Source: Leptolyngbyaceae cyanobacterium T60_A2020_046
Lineage (GTDB): Bacteria > Cyanobacteriota > Cyanobacteriia > Phormidesmidales > Phormidesmidaceae
Assembly: GCA_015272155.1 (NCBI GenBank)
Contig: JACYME010000007.1
Location: 1-42,626, forward strand
DNA length: 42,626 nucleotides
Direction of reading: 5' to 3'
Made by a program: the position numbers and the translations under genes. The notes beneath the pieces are model-generated. The model saw only the letters and a program-made list of their open reading frames with translations, was not told where the DNA came from and did not search any database. Positions 7,707 through 41,741 of the stretch are shown here, in pieces. Each line of letters opens with the position of its first letter. The first letter of the stretch is position 1.

Positions 7707-9125
7707 GTGCATCAACTCAACCTTCGTCGGTGGCGCTGGCCACTGCTCTTGTTACTGGGCATCGGTTTGGTCTGGCAACTCAATCGGTGTCAGGCCAATG
7801 CGATCGCACCGACTCAGGTGCCCCTCGCCCAAGATCCCTACGTGCAGGTGTATTTCAACCACTCTGAGGCGGCTGTATATACCGACCCCTACCGTCGCAT
7901 TCGGCGGCAGGGGGATGATTTAGAACACATTTTGCTCACGGAAATTGCAGCGGCCCAAACATCAATTGATGTGGCCGTGCAAGAGCTGAATTTGCCTAAG
8001 GTAGCGATCGCCCTGCGCGATCGTGCCCAATCCGGCATCGCCGTCCGCGTCATTGTCGAAAACCAGTACAACCGGGTCTGGCGACCCACCACGAACCGGC
8101 CCGGAGGCGACACCCGCGAACAGGCTAAATTCTCCGAAAAACAGCGACTCATCGATGCCAACAATGACGGCAAAATCACCGCCGCAGAACTCGACGCCGG
8201 CGACTCCATTCGGATCTTGCAGAAAGGAAACGTTCCCCTCATCGACGACACCGCCGATGGCTCCAAGGGCAGCGGCCTCATGCACCACAAATTCATCGTG
8301 ATCGATCGCCGCACCGTCATCACAGGCTCCGCCAACTTCACCCTAAGCGACATCCACGGCGACTTTGGCAATCCCGAAACCCGAGGCAACGCCAACGCCC
8401 TGCTCACCCTCCGGAGCCCAGACTTGGCCGCCATCTTCACTGAAGAATTTGAGCTGATGTGGGGTGATGGGCCAAAACAAAAACCCGATAGCCGATTTGG
8501 CCTGCAAAAGCCCCCTCGCAAAACTCGGATTGTCCAACCGCCGGGTTCTCAAATTACCGTCCAGTTTTCTCCCCTCTCAAAAACTCAACCCTGGAATCAG
8601 AGCACAAATGGGCTCATTAGCAAAACCCTGTCCCAAGCACGGCAAACCATTGATTTGGCTCTCTTCGTCTTTTCTGACCAAAACATCAGCAATCGTCTTG
8701 CCCAGCAGTCTCAGGCGGGGGTCAGCATTCGGGCGTTGATCGATCGCGACTTTGCCTACCGCTACTACAGCGAAGGACTCGACATGCTGGGGGTTGCCAT
8801 CCCAGACCATCGCTGCAAATTTCAACCCCAAAATCAACCCTGGAAGCAACCCATCAGCACCGTCGGCACCGCCAACTTGGCCGAGGGCGATAAGCTCCAC
8901 CACAAGTTTGCGCTGGTGGATAACACCACCGTGATCATTGGCTCCCACAACTGGAGCGCCGCCGCCAACCACAACAACGACGAAAGTCTACTAATCATTC
9001 GCAACCCAACGGTCGCGGCCCACTTTCGGCGCGAGTACGATCGCCTAATTGCCGACGCCCACCTCGGGCTCACACAGTCTGTGCGCGATCGCCTCCAGCG
9101 CCAACGTCGCCAATGCGGGCTATAG
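7707..9125 (+). CDS. Phospholipase-D-like protein with an EF-hand calcium loop
   Basis: A 472-residue PLD-superfamily protein with both catalytic HxKxxxxD motifs: H193/K195/D200 (MHHKFIVIDRRTVITGSANF) and H398/K400/D405 (LHHKFALVDN, then IGSHNWS). Such proteins act on phosphodiester bonds in lipids or nucleic acids; the substrate here is unknown. An N-terminal hydrophobic segment (about 11-24) suggests export or membrane anchoring. Inserted between the first two strands of the first PLD domain and its HKD motif is D150-A-N-N-D-G-K-I-T-A-A-E161, a complete canonical EF-hand loop. The start is GTG at 7707. The gene is divergent from the amiC unit and convergent with the broken membrane gene, whose end lies 15 bp away. 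Confidence 0.9.
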   Translation: MHQLNLRRWRWPLLLLLGIGLVWQLNRCQANAIAPTQVPLAQDPYVQVYFNHSEAAVYTDPYRRIRRQGDDLEHILLTEIAAAQTSIDVAVQELNLPKVAIALRDRAQSGIAVRVIVENQYNRVWRPTTNRPGGDTREQAKFSEKQRLIDANNDGKITAAELDAGDSIRILQKGNVPLIDDTADGSKGSGLMHHKFIVIDRRTVITGSANFTLSDIHGDFGNPETRGNANALLTLRSPDLAAIFTEEFELMWGDGPKQKPDSRFGLQKPPRKTRIVQPPGSQITVQFSPLSKTQPWNQSTNGLISKTLSQARQTIDLALFVFSDQNISNRLAQQSQAGVSIRALIDRDFAYRYYSEGLDMLGVAIPDHRCKFQPQNQPWKQPISTVGTANLAEGDKLHHKFALVDNTTVIIGSHNWSAAANHNNDESLLIIRNPTVAAHFRREYDRLIADAHLGLTQSVRDRLQRQRRQCGL

Positions 9126-9140
9126 CGCTCTCGGCATGGC

Positions 9141-10005
9141 CTACCCACGCAGACTCAGCCCCACCAAGCACCCCAAATACAGCGTCCCAAATCCTGCCAC
9201 AACGATGATGGAAGGCAAACGTAACTGTTCAGGAGTCGCCGCTCCCAGCAGATACACCCGTCTTTCATCTAAAGCAAAACTTGCGGCCTGATTGAGCCAT
9301 CGCGCACGCACCCCCACCCCCCGCGAACTCAGCGCAAGCGTGGAATCCTGCGGAATAAAGCGCTCTCCCCACGCAGGTTGGAGCGGATACAGCATCCCCG
9401 TCACAGCGGTCGATTTCGCCGCCACCGTCGTCCCCAGCGCCCGCCGTTCAACCATGACCGCGATCGCATCTGTCCGCTGCCACCCCGCTGCCACCCCGCT
9501 GCCACCCCGCTGGCAACAAGGGCACCCAATGCACCCGAATCGTGCGCGGCGGCTGAGACAGGTGGCTGTTGCCCCGCACCTTATAGGCGTCCTGGACGGC
9601 AAGCTGTGGCTGCGGCACCCCAGTCAGCCTGACGTAGGCAAGAAGCGACGGCGGCGCAGCGAGCAACGCCTCCACCGAAAGGGGAATCGGCTCACGGGGC
9701 TGCCCCCCAGCGGCATAGAACAGCGGCAGGATCGTCGTCCAAATACCTGTGAACACAAACAACTGCAAGAGCCCTACAGTGAGATGTAGGCTGATTAGCT
9801 GCTCAGATTCCCAAGCGCTCAAAAAAATACGGGTCAACATCAACCCCGTAGCCAGGGCGATCGCACCCCCCAACAGCACACTGCCATACAGCCCAAATCC
9901 AACCCACGGCGGCCACAGCCCCAGGCTAATCCCCGCCGCAAGCCACAGCGCGTTGATCACTAAGGCGATCGCGCGCCGCCATCGATATCGGAGTGCGTGG
10001 TTCAT
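9141..10005 (-). pseudogene. Integral membrane protein gene, frameshifted at an 11-bp tandem repeat
   Basis: The N-terminal part (ATG 10005, MNHALRYRWRR; a GTG at 10044 is an alternative start) has three or four hydrophobic segments: ALVINALWLAAGISLGLW, YGSVLLGGAIALATGLM, LHLTVGLLQLFVFTGIW and nearby. It runs in frame to 9507 and then loses its frame inside three copies of an 11-bp unit. The frame that continues to 9141 reads TDAIAVMVERRALG and ends with a further hydrophobic segment (SIIVVAGFGTLYLGCLVGLSL). With one repeat copy, or four, the two halves join exactly (PAGWQRTDAIAV). Family unknown. It may be a dead gene, a switchable gene, or a sequencing or assembly error. Confidence 0.7.
9474..9506. 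repeat. Three tandem copies of an 11-bp unit (CCGCTGCCACC)
   Basis: Units at 9474-9484, 9485-9495 and 9496-9506 are identical, followed by a partial fourth (CCGCTG). Because 11 is not a multiple of 3, each copy changes the reading frame of the overlapping minus-strand gene. Frame is kept only when the copy number is 1 or 4; the window has 3. Confidence 0.95.
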
Positions 10006-10142
10006 CAACGTGCAAAGCCCACCGAGAAACGGCGATCGCTGCACTGCTCAAAATGCAGCGAAACCCCGTGCAGAACCCCCCACAAACCCGATAGAGTAAG
10101 GAAATGTAACGTTTCTTAGAGTTGACCCAGAGGCGATCATCC

Positions 10143-11324
10143 ATGCGCGTGATTCTCATGACCGGTAAAGGCGGCGTCGGCAAAACGTCTGTAGCGGCTG
10201 CCACCGGGCTGCGCTGTGCCGAACTCGGCTACAAAACCCTCGTCCTCAGCACCGACCCAGCCCACTCCCTCGCCGACAGCTTTGACAGGGAACTGGGCCA
10301 CGACCCGCGCCAGGTGCGTCCCAATCTCTATGGAGCAGAACTCGACGCCCTGATGGAACTCGAAGGCAACTGGGGCGCAGTGAAACGCTACATCACCGAC
10401 GTACTGCAAGCTCGCGGCCTCGAAGGCGTCGAAGCCGAGGAACTCGCCATCCTCCCTGGCATGGACGAAATCTTTAGCCTCGTACGCATGAAACGCCATT
10501 ACGACGAAGGCGAGTTCGACGTGCTCATCATCGACTCCGCCCCAACGGGCACTGCCCTGCGCCTGCTCAGCCTTCCCGAGGTCGCCGGGTGGTATATGCG
10601 CCGCTTCTACAAGCCCTTCCAAGCCGTATCTGCGGCTCTGCGTCCCCTCGTCGAGCCCCTCTTCCGCCCCGTAGCAGGCTTCTCCCTACCCACAAAGGAA
10701 GTCATGGATGCACCCTACGAATTTTATGAGCAGCTTGTTGCCCTCGAACAAGTGCTGACCGACGCGACCAAAACCTCTGTCCGCCTGGTGACCAACCCCG
10801 AGAAGATGGTGATCAAAGAGTCCCTCCGCGCCCACGCTTACCTCAGCCTGTACAACGTTGGCACGGACTTGGTGATTGCCAACCGCATCATTCCTGACTC
10901 TGTGCAGGATCCCTTTTTCCAGCGGTGGAAGGATCAGCAGCAGCAATATCGCCACGAAATCCACGAAAACTTCCGGCCTCTGCCCGTGAAAGAAATTCCG
11001 CTGTATTCCGAGGAAATGTGCGGGCTCGCAGCATTGGAGCGCTTGAAGGAAACCCTCTACGCCAATGAAGACCCCACCCAGGTCTATTACAAAGAAACGA
11101 CCTTGCGGGTCGTGCAGGGCGACGACGATACCTATAGCCTGGAGGTTTATCTCCCCGGCATTCCTAAGGACAAGATCGAGCTGAGCAAGACTGCCGATGA
11201 GCTAAATATTCGCATCGGCAATCATCGGCGTAATTTGGTGCTGCCTCAGGCACTGGCAACCATGAATCCGGCGGGGGCCAAGATCGAAGAGGACTATCTG
11301 AAGATTCGCTTTGCGGCGGCATAG
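10143..11324 (+). CDS. ArsA/Get3-family ATPase with C-terminal HSP20-like domain
   Basis: A 393-residue ATPase of the ArsA/TRC40/Get3 family. The deviant Walker A is GKGGVGKT (residues 8-15), with [11 protein letters not shown] and the switch region [16 protein letters not shown] following. Eukaryotic Get3 delivers tail-anchored proteins to membranes; ArsA drives arsenite pumps. No arsenic genes are nearby and the metal-binding cysteines of ArsA are absent, so a Get3-like or chaperone role is more likely. The C-terminal 80 residues ([17 protein letters not shown] onward) are the ArsA-HSP20 (alpha-crystallin-like) domain found in photosynthetic bacteria. ATG 10143 begins [11 protein letters not shown] directly at the first strand; an upstream TTG at 10122 is less likely. 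It converges on a gene for a protein with a C-terminal membrane anchor. Confidence 0.9.
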
Positions 11325-34099: not shown

Positions 34100-37000
34100 T
34101 CACTGCTTCGACTGACTGAGGGGAATGGTGATCACAAAACAGGTGCCGCCAGTCTCGGGGGTTGTGCAGGTCAGGGTGCCGCCGTGCTTTTCAGTCACGA
34201 TTTGGTAGCTAATTGAAAGACCCATACCCGTTCCCTTACCGATGGCTTTGGTGGTGAAGAAGGAATCAAACAGGCGATCGCGCAATGACTCCGGCACTCC
34301 CGGCCCTGTATCGGCGATCGCAATCTGAACCAAATCATCCTCGACTAACGTAGTCGTCAAGGTAATCCCAAGCTCTGAATCGGCCCCGTCGGGTGCCTCG
34401 TAATGTTCCTCCAGGGCGTCAATCGCATTACTGAGAATGTTCATAAAAACCTGGTTGAGCTGCCCAGCGTAGCATTCCACTGGGGGAAGGCTGCCGTACT
34501 GGCGATGAATGACAATTTCGGGGCGATCGCCCTTGGCCTTAATGCGATTTTGCAAAATCATCAGTGTGCTGTCTAAACCTTCATGGAGATCGACTGCCTT
34601 CATTTCGGCCTCATCCATGCGCGAGAAGATACGCAGCGACGCCACAATCTGCTGAATGCGATCGGCCCCGACCTTCATGGAATTCAGCATTTTGGGAAGG
34701 TCTTCAAGCAAAAAGGGCAGATCAATGGCATCCATTTCTGCCGCGATCGCCTCCGGCGGGTCAGGGTAGGTCGTTTGATACAGCTCAACCAGCCCCATCA
34801 AATCTTGGGTGTAGCCACGGGCGTGCATCAAGTTCCCGTAGATGAAGTTGACCGGGTTATTGATCTCGTGAGCTACCCCAGCAACCAACTGCCCCAAGCT
34901 CGACATCTTTTCACTTTGAATGACCTGAGCCTGAGTCCGTCGCAGTTCATCCAGGGTATGTTGCAGTTCCACCGCCTGGTTGCGCAGTTCAAGTTCAGAC
35001 TGTTGCAGCGCCAGTTCCGTTTGTTGCCGTTGCCAGGCTTCAATCGCGGAAGTTAGCAGGTCAGCCAGCGAGCCCGCAAAACTGATTTCCTCAATGCTCC
35101 AGAGGCGCTCCGTTGGCCCCGAGGACTCCAGGCAAAACACCCCTACCATCCGCCCCCGCAGCCATAGGGAGGTGTCCAGTAAGGCCGTCACGCCCTCCGT
35201 GGTGCCATACACCTCCGCCAGATCAAGCGTCCGGGAATCCGTTGCAAGATTTGCGATCGCGAGGGTTCGTTCTTCCTCCAGCGCCTTGAGGTAGATCGGC
35301 AATGCTCGCATGTCAAGATTTGGAGTCTCGACGTGATCCCCGTTGAGGCGGCAAACATCTTGGCACTCCAGATAATTGCCATCCTGACTACGGAGCCACA
35401 GGCTAGCACTGACGGAGAGCGTTGCCGCCGTTGCCTTTAGTACCTGAGTCACAAATTCCTTAAAGGACAGTTGCTCTAGGGCACGAATCCGCACAAGTTG
35501 GGCGATCGCATCCCGATGAACGCGCAACTGCGCCTCACTTTGACGCTGGGCCGCCATTGCCTGCTCACGCTCAGTAATATCCAGCACCAAAGAGGCGCTG
35601 CCGATCATCTCCCCATCGGCATTAATGAGGGGCGTGTTGTACCAGTCACAAATAATCGAGCGGCCCTCACGAGTCAGGTTGGAATTGGTGCTGCGGGTGC
35701 CGCCTGTGCCTTGACGCAACGCCTCAAATCGTTCCTCTGCCAGGGGGATGCCCTCAGGAGCGATGATCAACCCGATTCTCTGCCCGATCGCCTCCGCAGC
35801 GGAATAGCCAAAAATCCGTTCTGCCGCAGGATTCCACGCCTGAATCAGACCCTCCGGACTCCACTCAATCACGGCCAAGGGCGACTGTTGAATCATCAAC
35901 GCCAGCTTTTGCTGGGAAGCGCGCAGGGCATTTTCCGTCGCTTTGCGAGCGCGAATATCCCGCACAATTGTGGACAAATATTGCAGCGTGCCCGCCCCAT
36001 CCTTGTGCGACAAAATCACCTGCGAAACCGGAACCGTCTGACCATCACTGCGGAGCAAGAGGGATTCTCCTTGCCAGGTGCCCCGCGCGATCGCCTTCGG
36101 CACCGCCACCTTGAGCAAAGTCCCCACTTCTTCTGGAGCGACCAACGCCTTAACGTGGAAATCAGGCGGCAGCGGCCCAGATTCCGGCAGACCCACCATG
36201 GCCCGTCCTGCCCGGTTCATATAAGTGATCTGGCCGTCAGGCATGGCCGTACTAACCAAATCAGGCGTCGCTTCCAAAATTGCCAGCAAGCGATCTTGCT
36301 CACGCTGGGCAGCAAGGCGATCGGTAATATCCATCGCTAATCCTGCAATACCAATCAGCATCCCCTCCGCATTCACCAGAGGCAGGTTATACCATTCACA
36401 AAAAATCCGACGGCCATCCTTGGTCTGATTTTCATTGGTGTTAAAAATCACGGCTTGGCGCGTCACCGCATCTTGAAAGACTGCATTCACCTCATCCTGA
36501 AACTCGGGGGGAACGAGCAACTCCACACCTCGACCCCAAACCTCTTCAGCGGTGTATCCAAAAATGCGCTCCGCTGACGGATTCCAGGCTTGAATGCGGC
36601 CTTCGTTGTCCCATTCGATGATAGCGATCGGGCTCTGCTGCACCAACAGCTCCATCCGTTGCCGATATTCCTGAATTTCACGGGTGCGCGCCTCCACACG
36701 GGCTTCCAGTTCCGCATTCAGACGCTGGAGCTGAACTTCTGCGCGGTGGCGATCGCTCACATCCCGCACCATCACCAACACCTCATCCACACCGCAGGGC
36801 GTCACGCGCACCTCTTCACGACACGTTTGCCCCTGAATCACAATGTCCTGCTCATAAACTTGAGTTTCCCCAGTCAACAGGGCTTGAGCCGTGTAGGCCA
36901 TCCGCGCTTGGGCGAGCGTCGATGGCAAAATATCAAACACAGTGCGTGCCAAGGGTTCATCGATCCCAACGGGCTGCACGCTGAGATTCGTACCTGCCAC

Positions 37001-38401
37001 CACATCCCGATAGGTACCATCCGCTGCCATACAAATTAGGAGATCTGGAACCGCTTGAATAAGCGCCCGATTCGTCGCTTCGCTCTGGCGCAATTGATCA
37101 TCCGCCAACTTGCGCTCGGTGATGTCAAAAATCACGCCATCCAAATACAGCAGGTTCCCCGCCTCGTCAAAACAGCCGCGCCCTTTTTCGTAAACCCAGC
37201 GTAGCGAACCATCGGCATGCCAAATGCGATATTCCACCTCATAGGACTGCTGAGCTTCCACGGCTTGCATCACATGCTTTGTCGCTACCGCGATATCCTC
37301 GGTGTCAATCAAGCTTGTCCACGATCGCACCGCATCTTTCAAAAAGTCTGTTGCAGGGTAGCCACAAATCTCCTCAACACAGTCACTCAACAGCAGCATG
37401 ATCCACTCCGCATCACACTGACAGCGATAGATAGCCCCAGGCACATTGGCAATCAACTGTCGCAAGCGCGATTCACTTTCTGCCAAGGAAAGCTCAGCCT
37501 GCTTGCGTTCTGTAATGTCTTGGGTCGTGCAAATGATGCGATGAACCTGCCCGGTGTCATCTCGCAGAGGCGTCAGCGTGGTTTGCCCCCAAATCAGCAG
37601 ATCGCCGACGGGCACACTTTCTTCGTAGGTTAAGCTACATCCATAGGCCAAACACTCTCGATAGCGGGCTTCCATCCCATGGCCTACCTCAGGCCCAAAC
37701 ACCTCAACCACGGATCGCCCCTGCACTTGCTCGGGCTGGAGTGACAAGGTGCGGGCCGTCATGGCGTTAATCCCCAGCAACGTAAATCCGCCGCTGGGGG
37801 TGACTTCAATGATCGCGAGACCATAGTCCACCCCATCGTAGATTTCGCGCAGCAGCGCCTCTTGCTCTCTCACCGCGCGTTCGATCTGCTTTTGTTGAGT
37901 AATTTCGCGCAGGGTAGCAATGATGAAGGGGTTGCCTTGGAGATCGTGGAAAATCGACTTTTGGCTGGCGATTGTGTGCTGCTGGCCGTGAGCATCGGTG
38001 AGGGTTACTTCGCGATATTGCGGCTGGTGGGTGCGCAGCACGTCGTCATCCCCTTGCCAGAAAATCTGGGCTTCCGCTGGGGGGAAAATCGCCTCATTCG
38101 ACTGGCCCAGCAACGCTTCGGGGCCATACCCAACGAGTTGGCAGAATGCGTTGTTGACAAAGACCCATCGGTGTTGATGGTCTTTAATCACCAGGGGATC
38201 GCTGATGCCGTTGAGTAGGTTAGGTAAAACCCCGAGGGACAGGCTATCGAAGAACTCTGGGTGGAAGGGCACGGTAGTTAAGGGTTGACAAGGGATAACG
38301 CTGGCAGGGAAATCGCGATCGCGGCGGAATGTCACCGCATAGAACCACAAGCGGTCTTCTATTGTTGGCCCATTTGAGGGGTGCCTCACAACCGACGCCA
38401 T
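34100..38401 (-). CDS. Multi-PAS histidine kinase (seven PAS, GAF, HisKA, HATPase)
   Basis: A 1433-residue soluble sensor kinase. PAS domains begin at about residues 55, 183, 312, 445, 584, 705 and 832, most followed by a PAC-type DITERK motif (for example near 298, 428 and 950). A GAF domain (about 970-1110) follows, then a coiled linker, the HisKA domain with the phospho-acceptor His1178 in GVAHEINNPVNF (the HEINNP type common in cyanobacteria), and the HATPase (NAIDAL, ADTGPGVP, FFTTKAIGKGTGMGLSIS). There are no membrane segments, so it senses intracellular signals. PAS5 and PAS7 are near copies of each other. ATG 38401. The response regulator 141 bp downstream, its likely partner, is truncated by an IS1 remnant. 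Confidence 0.93.
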   Translation of the reverse strand: MASVVRHPSNGPTIEDRLWFYAVTFRRDRDFPASVIPCQPLTTVPFHPEFFDSLSLGVLPNLLNGISDPLVIKDHQHRWVFVNNAFCQLVGYGPEALLGQSNEAIFPPAEAQIFWQGDDDVLRTHQPQYREVTLTDAHGQQHTIASQKSIFHDLQGNPFIIATLREITQQKQIERAVREQEALLREIYDGVDYGLAIIEVTPSGGFTLLGINAMTARTLSLQPEQVQGRSVVEVFGPEVGHGMEARYRECLAYGCSLTYEESVPVGDLLIWGQTTLTPLRDDTGQVHRIICTTQDITERKQAELSLAESESRLRQLIANVPGAIYRCQCDAEWIMLLLSDCVEEICGYPATDFLKDAVRSWTSLIDTEDIAVATKHVMQAVEAQQSYEVEYRIWHADGSLRWVYEKGRGCFDEAGNLLYLDGVIFDITERKLADDQLRQSEATNRALIQAVPDLLICMAADGTYRDVVAGTNLSVQPVGIDEPLARTVFDILPSTLAQARMAYTAQALLTGETQVYEQDIVIQGQTCREEVRVTPCGVDEVLVMVRDVSDRHRAEVQLQRLNAELEARVEARTREIQEYRQRMELLVQQSPIAIIEWDNEGRIQAWNPSAERIFGYTAEEVWGRGVELLVPPEFQDEVNAVFQDAVTRQAVIFNTNENQTKDGRRIFCEWYNLPLVNAEGMLIGIAGLAMDITDRLAAQREQDRLLAILEATPDLVSTAMPDGQITYMNRAGRAMVGLPESGPLPPDFHVKALVAPEEVGTLLKVAVPKAIARGTWQGESLLLRSDGQTVPVSQVILSHKDGAGTLQYLSTIVRDIRARKATENALRASQQKLALMIQQSPLAVIEWSPEGLIQAWNPAAERIFGYSAAEAIGQRIGLIIAPEGIPLAEERFEALRQGTGGTRSTNSNLTREGRSIICDWYNTPLINADGEMIGSASLVLDITEREQAMAAQRQSEAQLRVHRDAIAQLVRIRALEQLSFKEFVTQVLKATAATLSVSASLWLRSQDGNYLECQDVCRLNGDHVETPNLDMRALPIYLKALEEERTLAIANLATDSRTLDLAEVYGTTEGVTALLDTSLWLRGRMVGVFCLESSGPTERLWSIEEISFAGSLADLLTSAIEAWQRQQTELALQQSELELRNQAVELQHTLDELRRTQAQVIQSEKMSSLGQLVAGVAHEINNPVNFIYGNLMHARGYTQDLMGLVELYQTTYPDPPEAIAAEMDAIDLPFLLEDLPKMLNSMKVGADRIQQIVASLRIFSRMDEAEMKAVDLHEGLDSTLMILQNRIKAKGDRPEIVIHRQYGSLPPVECYAGQLNQVFMNILSNAIDALEEHYEAPDGADSELGITLTTTLVEDDLVQIAIADTGPGVPESLRDRLFDSFFTTKAIGKGTGMGLSISYQIVTEKHGGTLTCTTPETGGTCFVITIPLSQSKQ

Positions 38402-38557: not shown

Positions 38558-39361
38558 ATGTGTCGATTGTTGGGCTATGTGGGATCACCGATCTCCCTGG
38601 GCGCTCTGCTCACTGATCCCCCCCATTCGCTGCGGGTACAAAGCTATGCACCAAGGGAGTTGCGGGTCGCGCTGCTGAATGCCGACGGGTTTGGCTTTGG
38701 ATGGTATGACGGCGATCGCGATCGCCGTCCTTTTACCTATCGCAGCATCCTGCCCCTCTGGAATGATCCTAACGTGGATTCTCTGTGCCGCTATATTCAC
38801 ACCCCAGCCGCGATCGCCTACGTCCGCAGTGCGACTCCCGGCCAAACGATCGATCACAGCAATTGCCAGCCCTTCCAGTCTGGCGAGTTGTTATTTTCCC
38901 ACAATGGCTATATTCACAACTTTCGGGAAACGCTGTATCGTCCGCTGCGATCGCGCCTGAGCGATCGCGCCTATGCTGCCATCCAAGGCAGCACCGACTC
39001 AGAACACCTGTGGGGGCTGGTGCTCACCGCCCTCGAACAAACCCCCGACTTACGCAGCGCCTTAGCCCATGCCCTTAATACCTTGGCAGATCTCGCAGTC
39101 CAATTTACCACGGCCATCGCCGCCAACATCCTGATGAGCGACGGCACTCAGCTCATTGGCGCGAAATTCTCATCTTTCGATCCTTCCCCCTCCCTATACT
39201 GGCTCCGAGGTGATCCGCGCTTTCCAAATAGCGCGATCGTCGCTTCAGAACCCCTCTTTGAAGCCGACTGGCAACCCTGCCCAGAGGCCACGTTGTTTAC
39301 GATATCTGCTCACCGTGACCCAGAATTTCATCCCCTCCAGCCCACGCCCTCTTCTATCTGA
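38558..39361 (+). CDS. egtC: Class II glutamine amidotransferase, ergothioneine EgtC type
   Basis: EgtC removes the glutamyl group from the gamma-glutamyl intermediate in ergothioneine synthesis. The 267-residue protein begins MCRLLGYVG, so Cys2 is the N-terminal nucleophile of the Ntn-hydrolase fold once Met is removed. Further hallmarks are RELRVALLNADGFGFGWY, AYVRSATPG, NCQPF, FSHNGYIHNFR and GSTDSEHLW. ATG 38558. The end of the gene overlaps the egtB start by 47 nt. EgtC in a cyanobacterium implies that EgtB here uses gamma-glutamylcysteine, as in mycobacteria, rather than free cysteine. EgtA and EgtE are not in the window. Confidence 0.88.
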   Translation: MCRLLGYVGSPISLGALLTDPPHSLRVQSYAPRELRVALLNADGFGFGWYDGDRDRRPFTYRSILPLWNDPNVDSLCRYIHTPAAIAYVRSATPGQTIDHSNCQPFQSGELLFSHNGYIHNFRETLYRPLRSRLSDRAYAAIQGSTDSEHLWGLVLTALEQTPDLRSALAHALNTLADLAVQFTTAIAANILMSDGTQLIGAKFSSFDPSPSLYWLRGDPRFPNSAIVASEPLFEADWQPCPEATLFTISAHRDPEFHPLQPTPSSI

Positions 39362-40622
39362 GAATGCTCGCCAAGCCCTCTGGGATGACATGATCGCCTG
39401 TCGCCAGAGCACCCTCACCCTCATCAAAGGGCTAACCCACACTGAACTGTGCCAGCAGGCCCACCCTGACTTCAGTCCTGTGGGCTGGCATCTGGGGCAC
39501 ATCGCTTTCACAGAATCGCTGTGGCTGCTTGAGCAGCTCAAGGGTGACCCCTGTCCCTATCCCCACTATCGTCGTGTGTTTGCCGCCGATGGCTTACCTA
39601 AATCTGAACGGCAAAATCTACCGTCCCTGGCAGAGTTGTTGGCATTTATGCAGACAATTCGCGATCGCACCCTCGCCTACCTCAACACCGCCCCGCTAGA
39701 AGACACCCACCGCCTCTGGCGATGGCTCCTCCAACACGAAAGCCAGCACGCAGAAACCGCTACGCTCTTGCTTGAGGTCCATCGCTGGCCCCGCAAGGTA
39801 ACCTGTTCTCCAACCTTGGCCACCGATCTCGCCCTAGATGCCCACCCACTGCCCCCAGAAATGGTCTACATTCCTGCTGGTGAAGTCATCCTTGGTAACG
39901 AGCATGACGACGCCCTCGATAACGAGCGTCCTCAACACCTCAGATACACCGACGCTTTTTTTATCGATCGCACCCCAGTCACCGTTCACGCTTTCCGCAC
40001 CTTCATGGAAGCGGGCGGCTATCAAAATCAAGAATTCTGGACACCCCAAGGCTGGCAATGGCGGCAAGCCTACGGTATTACCCAACCTCGCTACTGGCGC
40101 GATGCACCTGGCTGGGAGGCTCATCCAGTCTGTGGGGTCAGCCTTTATGAAGCCCAAGCCTATGCTCGTTTCGTCAACAAGCGACTCCCCACAGAAGCGG
40201 AGTGGGAAAAAGCTGCTCGCGGCCTAGCAACTCGCGATCGCCCCAATCCCAAGATTTCCCCCTTATATCCTTGGGGCTCACCTGAGATCGATCATCGATA
40301 CAGTAACTTCGGCAGCGCGATCGGCCACACAACCCCCGTCTCCCACCATCCCCTCGGCGCAAGTAACACTGGCTGTCTCGACCTTCTGGGCAACGTCTGG
40401 GAATGGACGGCCACAACCTTCCAAGACTATCCCGGCTTTCAAGCCTATCCCTATCGTGGCTATTCCCAAGCCTATTTTGACCACGCTCACTGGGTACTGC
40501 GAGGTGGCAGTTGGGCCACCCGCCGTTGGGCGCTGCGCAGCACCTTTCGCAACTGGTATCACCCCCATGTCCGCGAAGTCTTCGCCGGATTTCGATGTGT
40601 GTTAGATGCATCACAAGCTTAA
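39315..40622 (+). CDS. egtB: Ergothioneine synthase, sulfoxide-forming EgtB
   Basis: A non-haem iron enzyme that joins hercynine to a cysteine-containing thiol with O2. Of its 435 residues, the N-terminal DinB-like domain carries the iron ligands: the histidine in WHLGHIAF, then H141 and H145 in QHESQHAET. The C-terminal formylglycine-generating-enzyme-like domain (about 180-430) has MVYIPAGEVILGN, FIDRTPVTVHAF, RLPTEAEWEKAAR, LLGNVWEWT and VLRGGSWATR. The start is GTG at 39315; the ATG at 39390 would cut off the conserved first helix (ARQALWDD). It overlaps egtC by 47 nt and is followed after 60 bp by egtD, so the three genes form one unit. Confidence 0.9.
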   Translation: MTQNFIPSSPRPLLSENARQALWDDMIACRQSTLTLIKGLTHTELCQQAHPDFSPVGWHLGHIAFTESLWLLEQLKGDPCPYPHYRRVFAADGLPKSERQNLPSLAELLAFMQTIRDRTLAYLNTAPLEDTHRLWRWLLQHESQHAETATLLLEVHRWPRKVTCSPTLATDLALDAHPLPPEMVYIPAGEVILGNEHDDALDNERPQHLRYTDAFFIDRTPVTVHAFRTFMEAGGYQNQEFWTPQGWQWRQAYGITQPRYWRDAPGWEAHPVCGVSLYEAQAYARFVNKRLPTEAEWEKAARGLATRDRPNPKISPLYPWGSPEIDHRYSNFGSAIGHTTPVSHHPLGASNTGCLDLLGNVWEWTATTFQDYPGFQAYPYRGYSQAYFDHAHWVLRGGSWATRRWALRSTFRNWYHPHVREVFAGFRCVLDASQA

Positions 40623-40682
40623 AACTCCGGTGGCAGAATACACAGGGGCGTCTGCCCCCCTTGTCCCATCATTTGGTTCTTT

Positions 40683-41741
40683 ATGCTCCCTTCTTCGTCC
40701 TCAATCCGCGATCGTCATCCCCTCAACATCAACCCAGATGTACCATTACCCACCATCCTCCGCGATCGTCTCACGATGGAATATCGCACCCAGCCTGAAA
40801 CCGAAACAATCCGCGAAGGTCAAGATGTTGTCCTCGGCCTCAGCGCAACACCCAAATCTTTGCCACCTAAGTATTTTTATGATGACCGCGGCTCCAAGTT
40901 GTTTGAAGCCATTACTCAATTGCCAGAATATTATTTAACTCGCACTGAAACGACAATTTTACAGAACTGTGTCAGCGCGATCGCAGCCCGAGTCGGCCCC
41001 TGCGACTTGATCGAGTTGGGCAGCGGTAGTTCTACCAAGACTCGCATCCTACTCGATGCCTACCGTCAGCTCAACATTCATCTCCGCTACGTGCCCGTTG
41101 ATGTCAGCGGCAGCATGTTAGAAGAAACCGCCCATCTACTATTGCAAGAATATCCTCAACTCTCCATTCACGGACTCGTCAGCACCTACGAAAACGCCCT
41201 CGCCAACCTTCCAGATCGAATCCACCCAAGTCGAATGATCGCTTTTATTGGAAGTACCTTAGGCAACCTAGCTCTCCATGAATGCGAAACTTTTTTAGGC
41301 CATGTCAGCGCAGCCCTACAACCCAACGACCACTTTCTCCTCGGCATCGATCTTCACAAAGATACCGCTATCCTAGAAGCAGCCTACAACGACAGCCAGG
41401 GGATCACCGCCGCATTTAATCTCAACATGCTGGATCACCTTAACTGGCGTTTTCAAGGCAACTTTGACCTTCGACATTTTCGACATGTGTCGTTCTACAA
41501 CACTCGCGATCGCCAAATTGAAATGCACATTGAAAGTCTCAGATCACAAATCGTCAACCTCAGATCCCTAGAGTTCACCGCCACATTTGCAACAGGGGAG
41601 AAACTACTCAGCGAAATTTCTCGAAAATTTGAGATCCCTGAAATTCAAGAGACCTTGAGCAAGCACCACCTTAACGCCGTTGAGACCTTTACCGATAGTC
41701 AACGCTGGTTTGCACTGATCCTTTGCCAAAAGAAGCCGTAA
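40683..41741 (+). CDS. egtD: L-histidine N-alpha-methyltransferase EgtD
   Basis: Trimethylates histidine with SAM to give hercynine, the first step to ergothioneine. The 352-residue protein has the EgtD hallmarks: SLPPKYFYDDRGSKLFEAIT, LPEYYLTRTE, DLIELGSGSSTKT (SAM loop), VPVDVSGSMLEE, GSTLGNL and FLLGIDLHKD, then FNLNMLDHLNW and IEMHIESL in the histidine-binding part. ATG 40683 is upstream of the domain by about 45 residues; ATG 40776 (MEYRTQPE) is an alternative start. It is the third gene of the egtC-egtB-egtD unit. No terminator follows within 150 bp. Confidence 0.94.
   Translation: MLPSSSSIRDRHPLNINPDVPLPTILRDRLTMEYRTQPETETIREGQDVVLGLSATPKSLPPKYFYDDRGSKLFEAITQLPEYYLTRTETTILQNCVSAIAARVGPCDLIELGSGSSTKTRILLDAYRQLNIHLRYVPVDVSGSMLEETAHLLLQEYPQLSIHGLVSTYENALANLPDRIHPSRMIAFIGSTLGNLALHECETFLGHVSAALQPNDHFLLGIDLHKDTAILEAAYNDSQGITAAFNLNMLDHLNWRFQGNFDLRHFRHVSFYNTRDRQIEMHIESLRSQIVNLRSLEFTATFATGEKLLSEISRKFEIPEIQETLSKHHLNAVETFTDSQRWFALILCQKKP

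Follow-up and report, generated by a model that had tools for sequence, protein, structure and literature searches.

Simple-sequence contingency loci undergo phase variation by slipped-strand mispairing, and Waite et al. reportedly described, in 2001 and 2003, sequence duplications in capsule genes of the pneumococcus that can revert. One account places the duplication in these capsule genes inside the open reading frame and calls the loss reversible (PMC4243769). For Mycobacterium tuberculosis, it has been proposed that phase variation outside the classical systems can arise from tandem-repeat copy number (PMC12817950). In the GeneTack survey, a phase-variation cluster requires at least five frameshifted genes together with a tandem repeat near the frameshift, and singleton frameshifted genes likely originate from an indel mutation or from a sequencing error (PMC3711429). 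For the heptamer repeats of Nostoc and Xanthomonas, phase variation has been judged unlikely, and the same article cites work that found suppression of simple repeats at mid-gene positions (PMC4692102). The phrase "phase variation" was not found in the main text of PMC9716671; in PMC6560206 it occurs twice, in the introduction with regard to E. coli and in one reference. No slippage-driven phase-variable gene from a cyanobacterium was recognized among the literature matches listed, and such a gene may still be in print.

In the Leptolyngbyaceae cyanobacterium T60_A2020_046, a stretch of 42,626 nucleotides (the window) contains a perfect 11-bp tandem array (9474-9512, assigned to neither strand) inside a minus-strand gene (9141-10005) which is predicted to encode a membrane protein with an extramembrane domain, whose relatives are 278 and 274 aa long, and whose frame is interrupted. 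We favor, with a probability of roughly 70%, the explanation that this gene is a recent loss-of-function allele which was made by tandem slippage and is reversible in principle. As in the pneumococcal capsule genes, a duplication within the reading frame breaks the gene; phase variation was observed in that system, whereas here a single allele is known from one draft cyanobacterial genome (PMC4243769). Like simple-sequence contingency loci, the array has a unit which is not a multiple of three and lies within coding sequence (PMC3711429), but it consists of few long units in mid-gene and neither homologue carries the repeat. The M. tuberculosis copy-number variants share with this locus tandem-repeat copy number as the proposed source of phase variation, although variants were compared between sequenced strains in that work and there is one assembly here (PMC12817950). 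The gene also resembles the GeneTack singletons in being one frameshifted member among intact homologues, with the difference that its indel cleanly adds two tandem units; it has the repeat expected near the frameshift in a phase-variation cluster, yet it is a singleton (PMC3711429).

The array contains 3.55 copies of the unit, which reads CCGCTGCCACC on the plus strand and CAGCGGGGTGG on the minus strand. Tandem Repeats Finder reported a period of 11, 3.5 copies and 100% matches, confirming the three identical units at 9474-9506 that had been noticed in an earlier sequence-only reading of this DNA; these whole units are followed by six more bases, CCGCTG. This array is the top-scoring one in the window (score 78 vs. 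61 for the second). When the window was shuffled 30 times with an order-2 Markov model, only one array with a unit of 8-30 and at least 2.5 copies was obtained across all shuffles combined. In the organism's own 4.2-Mb genome, a search for two consecutive units that tolerated at most two mismatches gave matches within the 9474-9512 array alone.

On each side of the repeat, the gene remains open. The upstream frame (9448-10005, minus strand) ends with the TGA at 9450-9448 after a short out-of-frame tail; its ATG start at 10005 was selected by homologue alignment, a GTG at 10044 being an alternative. The downstream frame (9141-9494, minus strand) encodes the remainder of the extramembrane domain and a final hydrophobic stretch, and it terminates at the stop 9143-9141. 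Using a codon-usage model trained on 149 long ORFs of the organism, the upstream and downstream halves scored 0.191 and 0.159 bits per codon in their own frames, while all ten other readings (five per half) were negative and contained at least one stop. Both scores lie below the lower quartile (0.236) and above the 5th percentile (0.054) of 165 long ORFs, and this position in the lower quarter was counted against the preferred explanation. Hydropathy analysis revealed hydrophobic stretches at about three places ahead of the repeat and one behind it, in support of a membrane protein. In the three-copy reading, the residues GWQR are followed by 15 foreign residues (GGSGVAADRCDRGHG) and then by the TGA at 9450-9448, and the frame is restored when (copies - 1) x 11 divides by three, that is, with one or four copies. 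The claims of the sequence-only reading that the halves are open and protein-like in different frames, that three copies end the protein early and that one or four would rejoin it are thus borne out. For annotation purposes, the 198-aa and 153-aa ORFs found here should be regarded as a single gene.

The ancestral state was deduced from homologues, which were found in two other genomes by searching 59 genomes (the organism's own and 58 relatives). Both are intact ORFs, of 278 aa (L002) and 274 aa (L003), the latter being the same protein as the one from the MAG casp40-mb.69 (L011). The TGA within the profile match of the 278-aa homologue is its terminal stop, since the match of 837 bases corresponds to the ORF plus the stop codon. 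Searched against the window DNA by tblastn, the 278-aa protein gave two matches overlapping at its residues 161-166, and residue 166 mapped to two window positions, in two frames, 22 bp apart. Residue 166 of the 274-aa homologue likewise mapped to two positions in two frames separated by 22 bp, both distances being computed from the coordinates of the tblastn matches. The 274-aa homologue had two further matches in the locus, both short and weak, with E values of 0.20 and 0.48; these were set aside as chance. The tblastn identity to the 278-aa homologue is 46% ahead of the site and 44% after it, and to the 274-aa homologue 28% and 31%, respectively; the downstream half matched the two-homologue profile with an E value of 1.8e-20. 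In the alignment, the two window rows share the GWQR columns and face a part of the 278-aa homologue that contains no gap. Both homologues cross the repeat site in one uninterrupted frame, and no repeat was seen by eye at the corresponding site in the DNA of either (n=2).

As the same residue falls on two positions 22 bp apart, the homologues settle that the window carries exactly two units beyond the uninterrupted gene. Given this two-unit excess and the absence of the repeat from both homologues, the three-copy state is derived. The repeat thus does set the frame, as had been claimed, and both homologues, intact, could be aligned to each half, an alignment which the sequence-only reading had suggested as a check. 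The gene is not decayed throughout, its two halves resembling the nearer homologue to a similar degree (46% and 44% identity). Intact homologues together with a disrupting indel, here the 22-bp excess over both of them, are found as for a frameshifted allele, and the dead allele which had been offered as an alternative to a switch is the best fit to these data.

A plausible mechanism can be proposed for the formation of this allele. On the coding strand, CAGCGG-GGTGG-CAGCGG comprises two identical hexamers 11 bp apart, and within the window this pattern is confined to the 9474-9512 array. The uninterrupted gene would have contained the 11-bp unit once, with a partial copy of 6 bp behind it, forming a CAGCGG direct repeat on the coding strand. 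Replication slippage between the two hexamers would have duplicated the unit, and the lengthened array, likely to slip more readily, would then have reached three copies. The 22 extra bp shift the frame, and the protein ends after GWQR and the 15 foreign residues, with the loss of the remainder of the extramembrane domain and of the last hydrophobic stretch. Loss of units could put the gene back in frame; the array is in principle reversible in this manner and is not known as a regulated or selected switch. DNA secondary structure was considered as the cause of slippage and rejected, the fold of the region being no better than that of shuffled sequences (z +1.72; among 200 shuffles, 198 gave a fold that was at least as good). 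A scan of 9000-10300 identified no promoter-like site and three terminator-like sites, vs. 2.0 expected. As a broken gene, the locus would provide a clean and small example of a six-base direct repeat growing into a frame-breaking array.

The break is probably recent, given the identity of the copies and a downstream half that still resembles coding sequence. Under neutral change, a perfect 39-bp array would persist with a chance of 13.5% at 0.05 changes per site and 1.6% at 0.1, and a downstream frame without a stop with a chance of 57% and 32%, respectively. The open downstream frame is therefore weak evidence of recency, a 32% chance remaining even at 0.1 changes per site. Slippage within the array itself may keep the copies alike, which counts against recency, and the overlapping start and stop may allow a split but working product, which was counted against loss of function.

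We further infer that the gene is presumably dispensable, because it is sporadic among relatives. With a profile built from the two homologues, which may miss remote relatives, the gene was found in three of 388 genomes of the class and in two of 63 genomes of the order, the organism's own genome being included in both counts, and in one of the three species of the genus of one homologue (G037). Scans of genome contigs returned no further homologue with the upstream half as query and only the MAG gene again with the two-homologue alignment, and no relative was found in plasmids or viral contigs. Neither the halves nor the intact homologues came near a curated cut-off in Pfam or NCBIfam: the only NCBIfam hit was MamD for the upstream half (E 0.041; 13.1 bits vs. 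a cut-off of 100) and the only Pfam hit was DUF2448 for the 274-aa homologue (E 0.61). The absence of a family above cut-off is consistent with a dispensable gene. A profile search of the PDB gave two hits only (E 1.1 and 1.5). The structure predicted for the 274-aa homologue from an alignment with the two window halves reached a mean pLDDT of 47.6, too low for a fold search; this low-confidence model agrees in outline with the hydropathy analysis. A heme-insertion (CCB) or SURF1-like identity was considered, found no support and was dropped. The gene is flanked by a convergent PLD-domain protein (7707-9125, plus strand) and by a divergent ArsA/Get3-type ATPase with a C-terminal HSP20-like domain (10122-11324, plus strand), and by eye the neighbors within about 1.5 kb differ from those of the two homologue loci.

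We also considered an error of assembly or sequencing, in which case the real copy number would keep the frame. The genome is a draft assembly of 250 contigs, which would fit such an error. A 39-bp array is however shorter than an ordinary short read, and repeats tend to be collapsed by assemblers instead of gaining copies. Moreover, 18 of the 20 other ORFs of the window matched Pfam at E<=0.001, and the single-domain matches that were inspected, in a non-systematic search for frame breaks, cover nearly the whole profile. We hence regard an error as unlikely.

The possibility that the array acts as a selected contingency locus, its copy number varying often and the membrane protein being produced at one or four copies, is likewise improbable. 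It has in its favor a perfect array whose unit is not a multiple of three, located inside a membrane-protein gene which is otherwise intact, a four-copy state which would be in frame and a repeat site which, in the low-confidence model of the homologue, is predicted to lie between two strands. Repeat copy number does decide the frame here, but a frameshift in several homologues was not observed: neither of the two known homologues, too few to reach the five of the GeneTack survey, carries the repeat or a frameshift. The array is in addition unique in its own genome, and 3.5 long units are short for a hypermutable tract. The allele is known from one draft assembly, and neither the 59 nor the 63 genomes examined include a second member of this genus.

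The sampled part of the genome revealed no class of loci of this kind. This sample comprised 61 stretches (805,850 bases, ~19% of the genome, window included), in which exact arrays of at least 20 bp were collected, with units of 5-100 and at least two copies (at least three for units below 8); in the first 41 stretches, the 20-bp floor leaves out two 18-bp arrays of 5-bp units. Only four arrays had at least three copies, and among them only the 9474-9512 array was found to break a gene, two of the others lying within ORFs of 640 and 261 aa and having units that are multiples of three. A perfect 10-bp array, TGCATCGGCC, with 3.8 copies and unique in the genome, was observed on contig C238 of the same organism (L021, 18759-18796), by eye apparently between fasciclin-like and response-regulator-like ORFs; it was judged intergenic, despite being covered by two mechanical ORFs (98 and 163 aa) that overlap each other. 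Among 56 arrays with 180 bases of flank per side, both flanks were coding-like on one strand in 19 cases, 17 of them in frame, the two frame changes corresponding to the 9474-9512 array and to one at the boundary of two neighboring ORFs. This flank test was the sole basis for judging several two-copy arrays that are located in mechanical ORFs and whose units are not multiples of three. The contingency switch put forward by the sequence-only reading is therefore not supported, considering the homologues (0 of 2), the few long units and the lack of a similar broken gene in 19% of the genome. More doubtful still is a mixed population in which 11-bp slippage would switch a rare and undescribed membrane protein, active at one or four copies and silent at two or three. 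If copy number did vary in the population, the locus would represent a slippage-driven phase-variable gene in a cyanobacterium.

Finally, a split but working gene, in which ribosomes ending at the premature TGA would restart at an ATG of the downstream frame (9453-9455, minus strand) so that the second half forms its own chain, is highly improbable: this ATG (9455-9453) begins five bases ahead of the TGA 9450-9448, which speaks for re-initiation, but its methionine also occurs in the intact 278-aa homologue and was therefore not made for re-initiation, no ribosome-binding site was recognized by eye in the 20 bases ahead of it, and the break falls within the domain between the helices.

Elsewhere in the window, three adjacent plus-strand ORFs (38558-41741) encode, according to their Pfam domains, a class-II glutamine amidotransferase, a DinB_2 and FGE-sulfatase protein and a histidine-specific methyltransferase, a trio which we take to resemble an ergothioneine (egtC-egtB-egtD) cluster. 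A 24-bp repeat (40427-40475; 1.9 copies, 80% matches) is located near the end of the DinB_2/FGE-sulfatase ORF. On the minus strand (34100-38401), a 1433-aa sensor histidine kinase contains several PAS domains and a GAF domain, and its HisKA match extends over 96 residues for 64 profile positions, which hints at an insertion in this domain.
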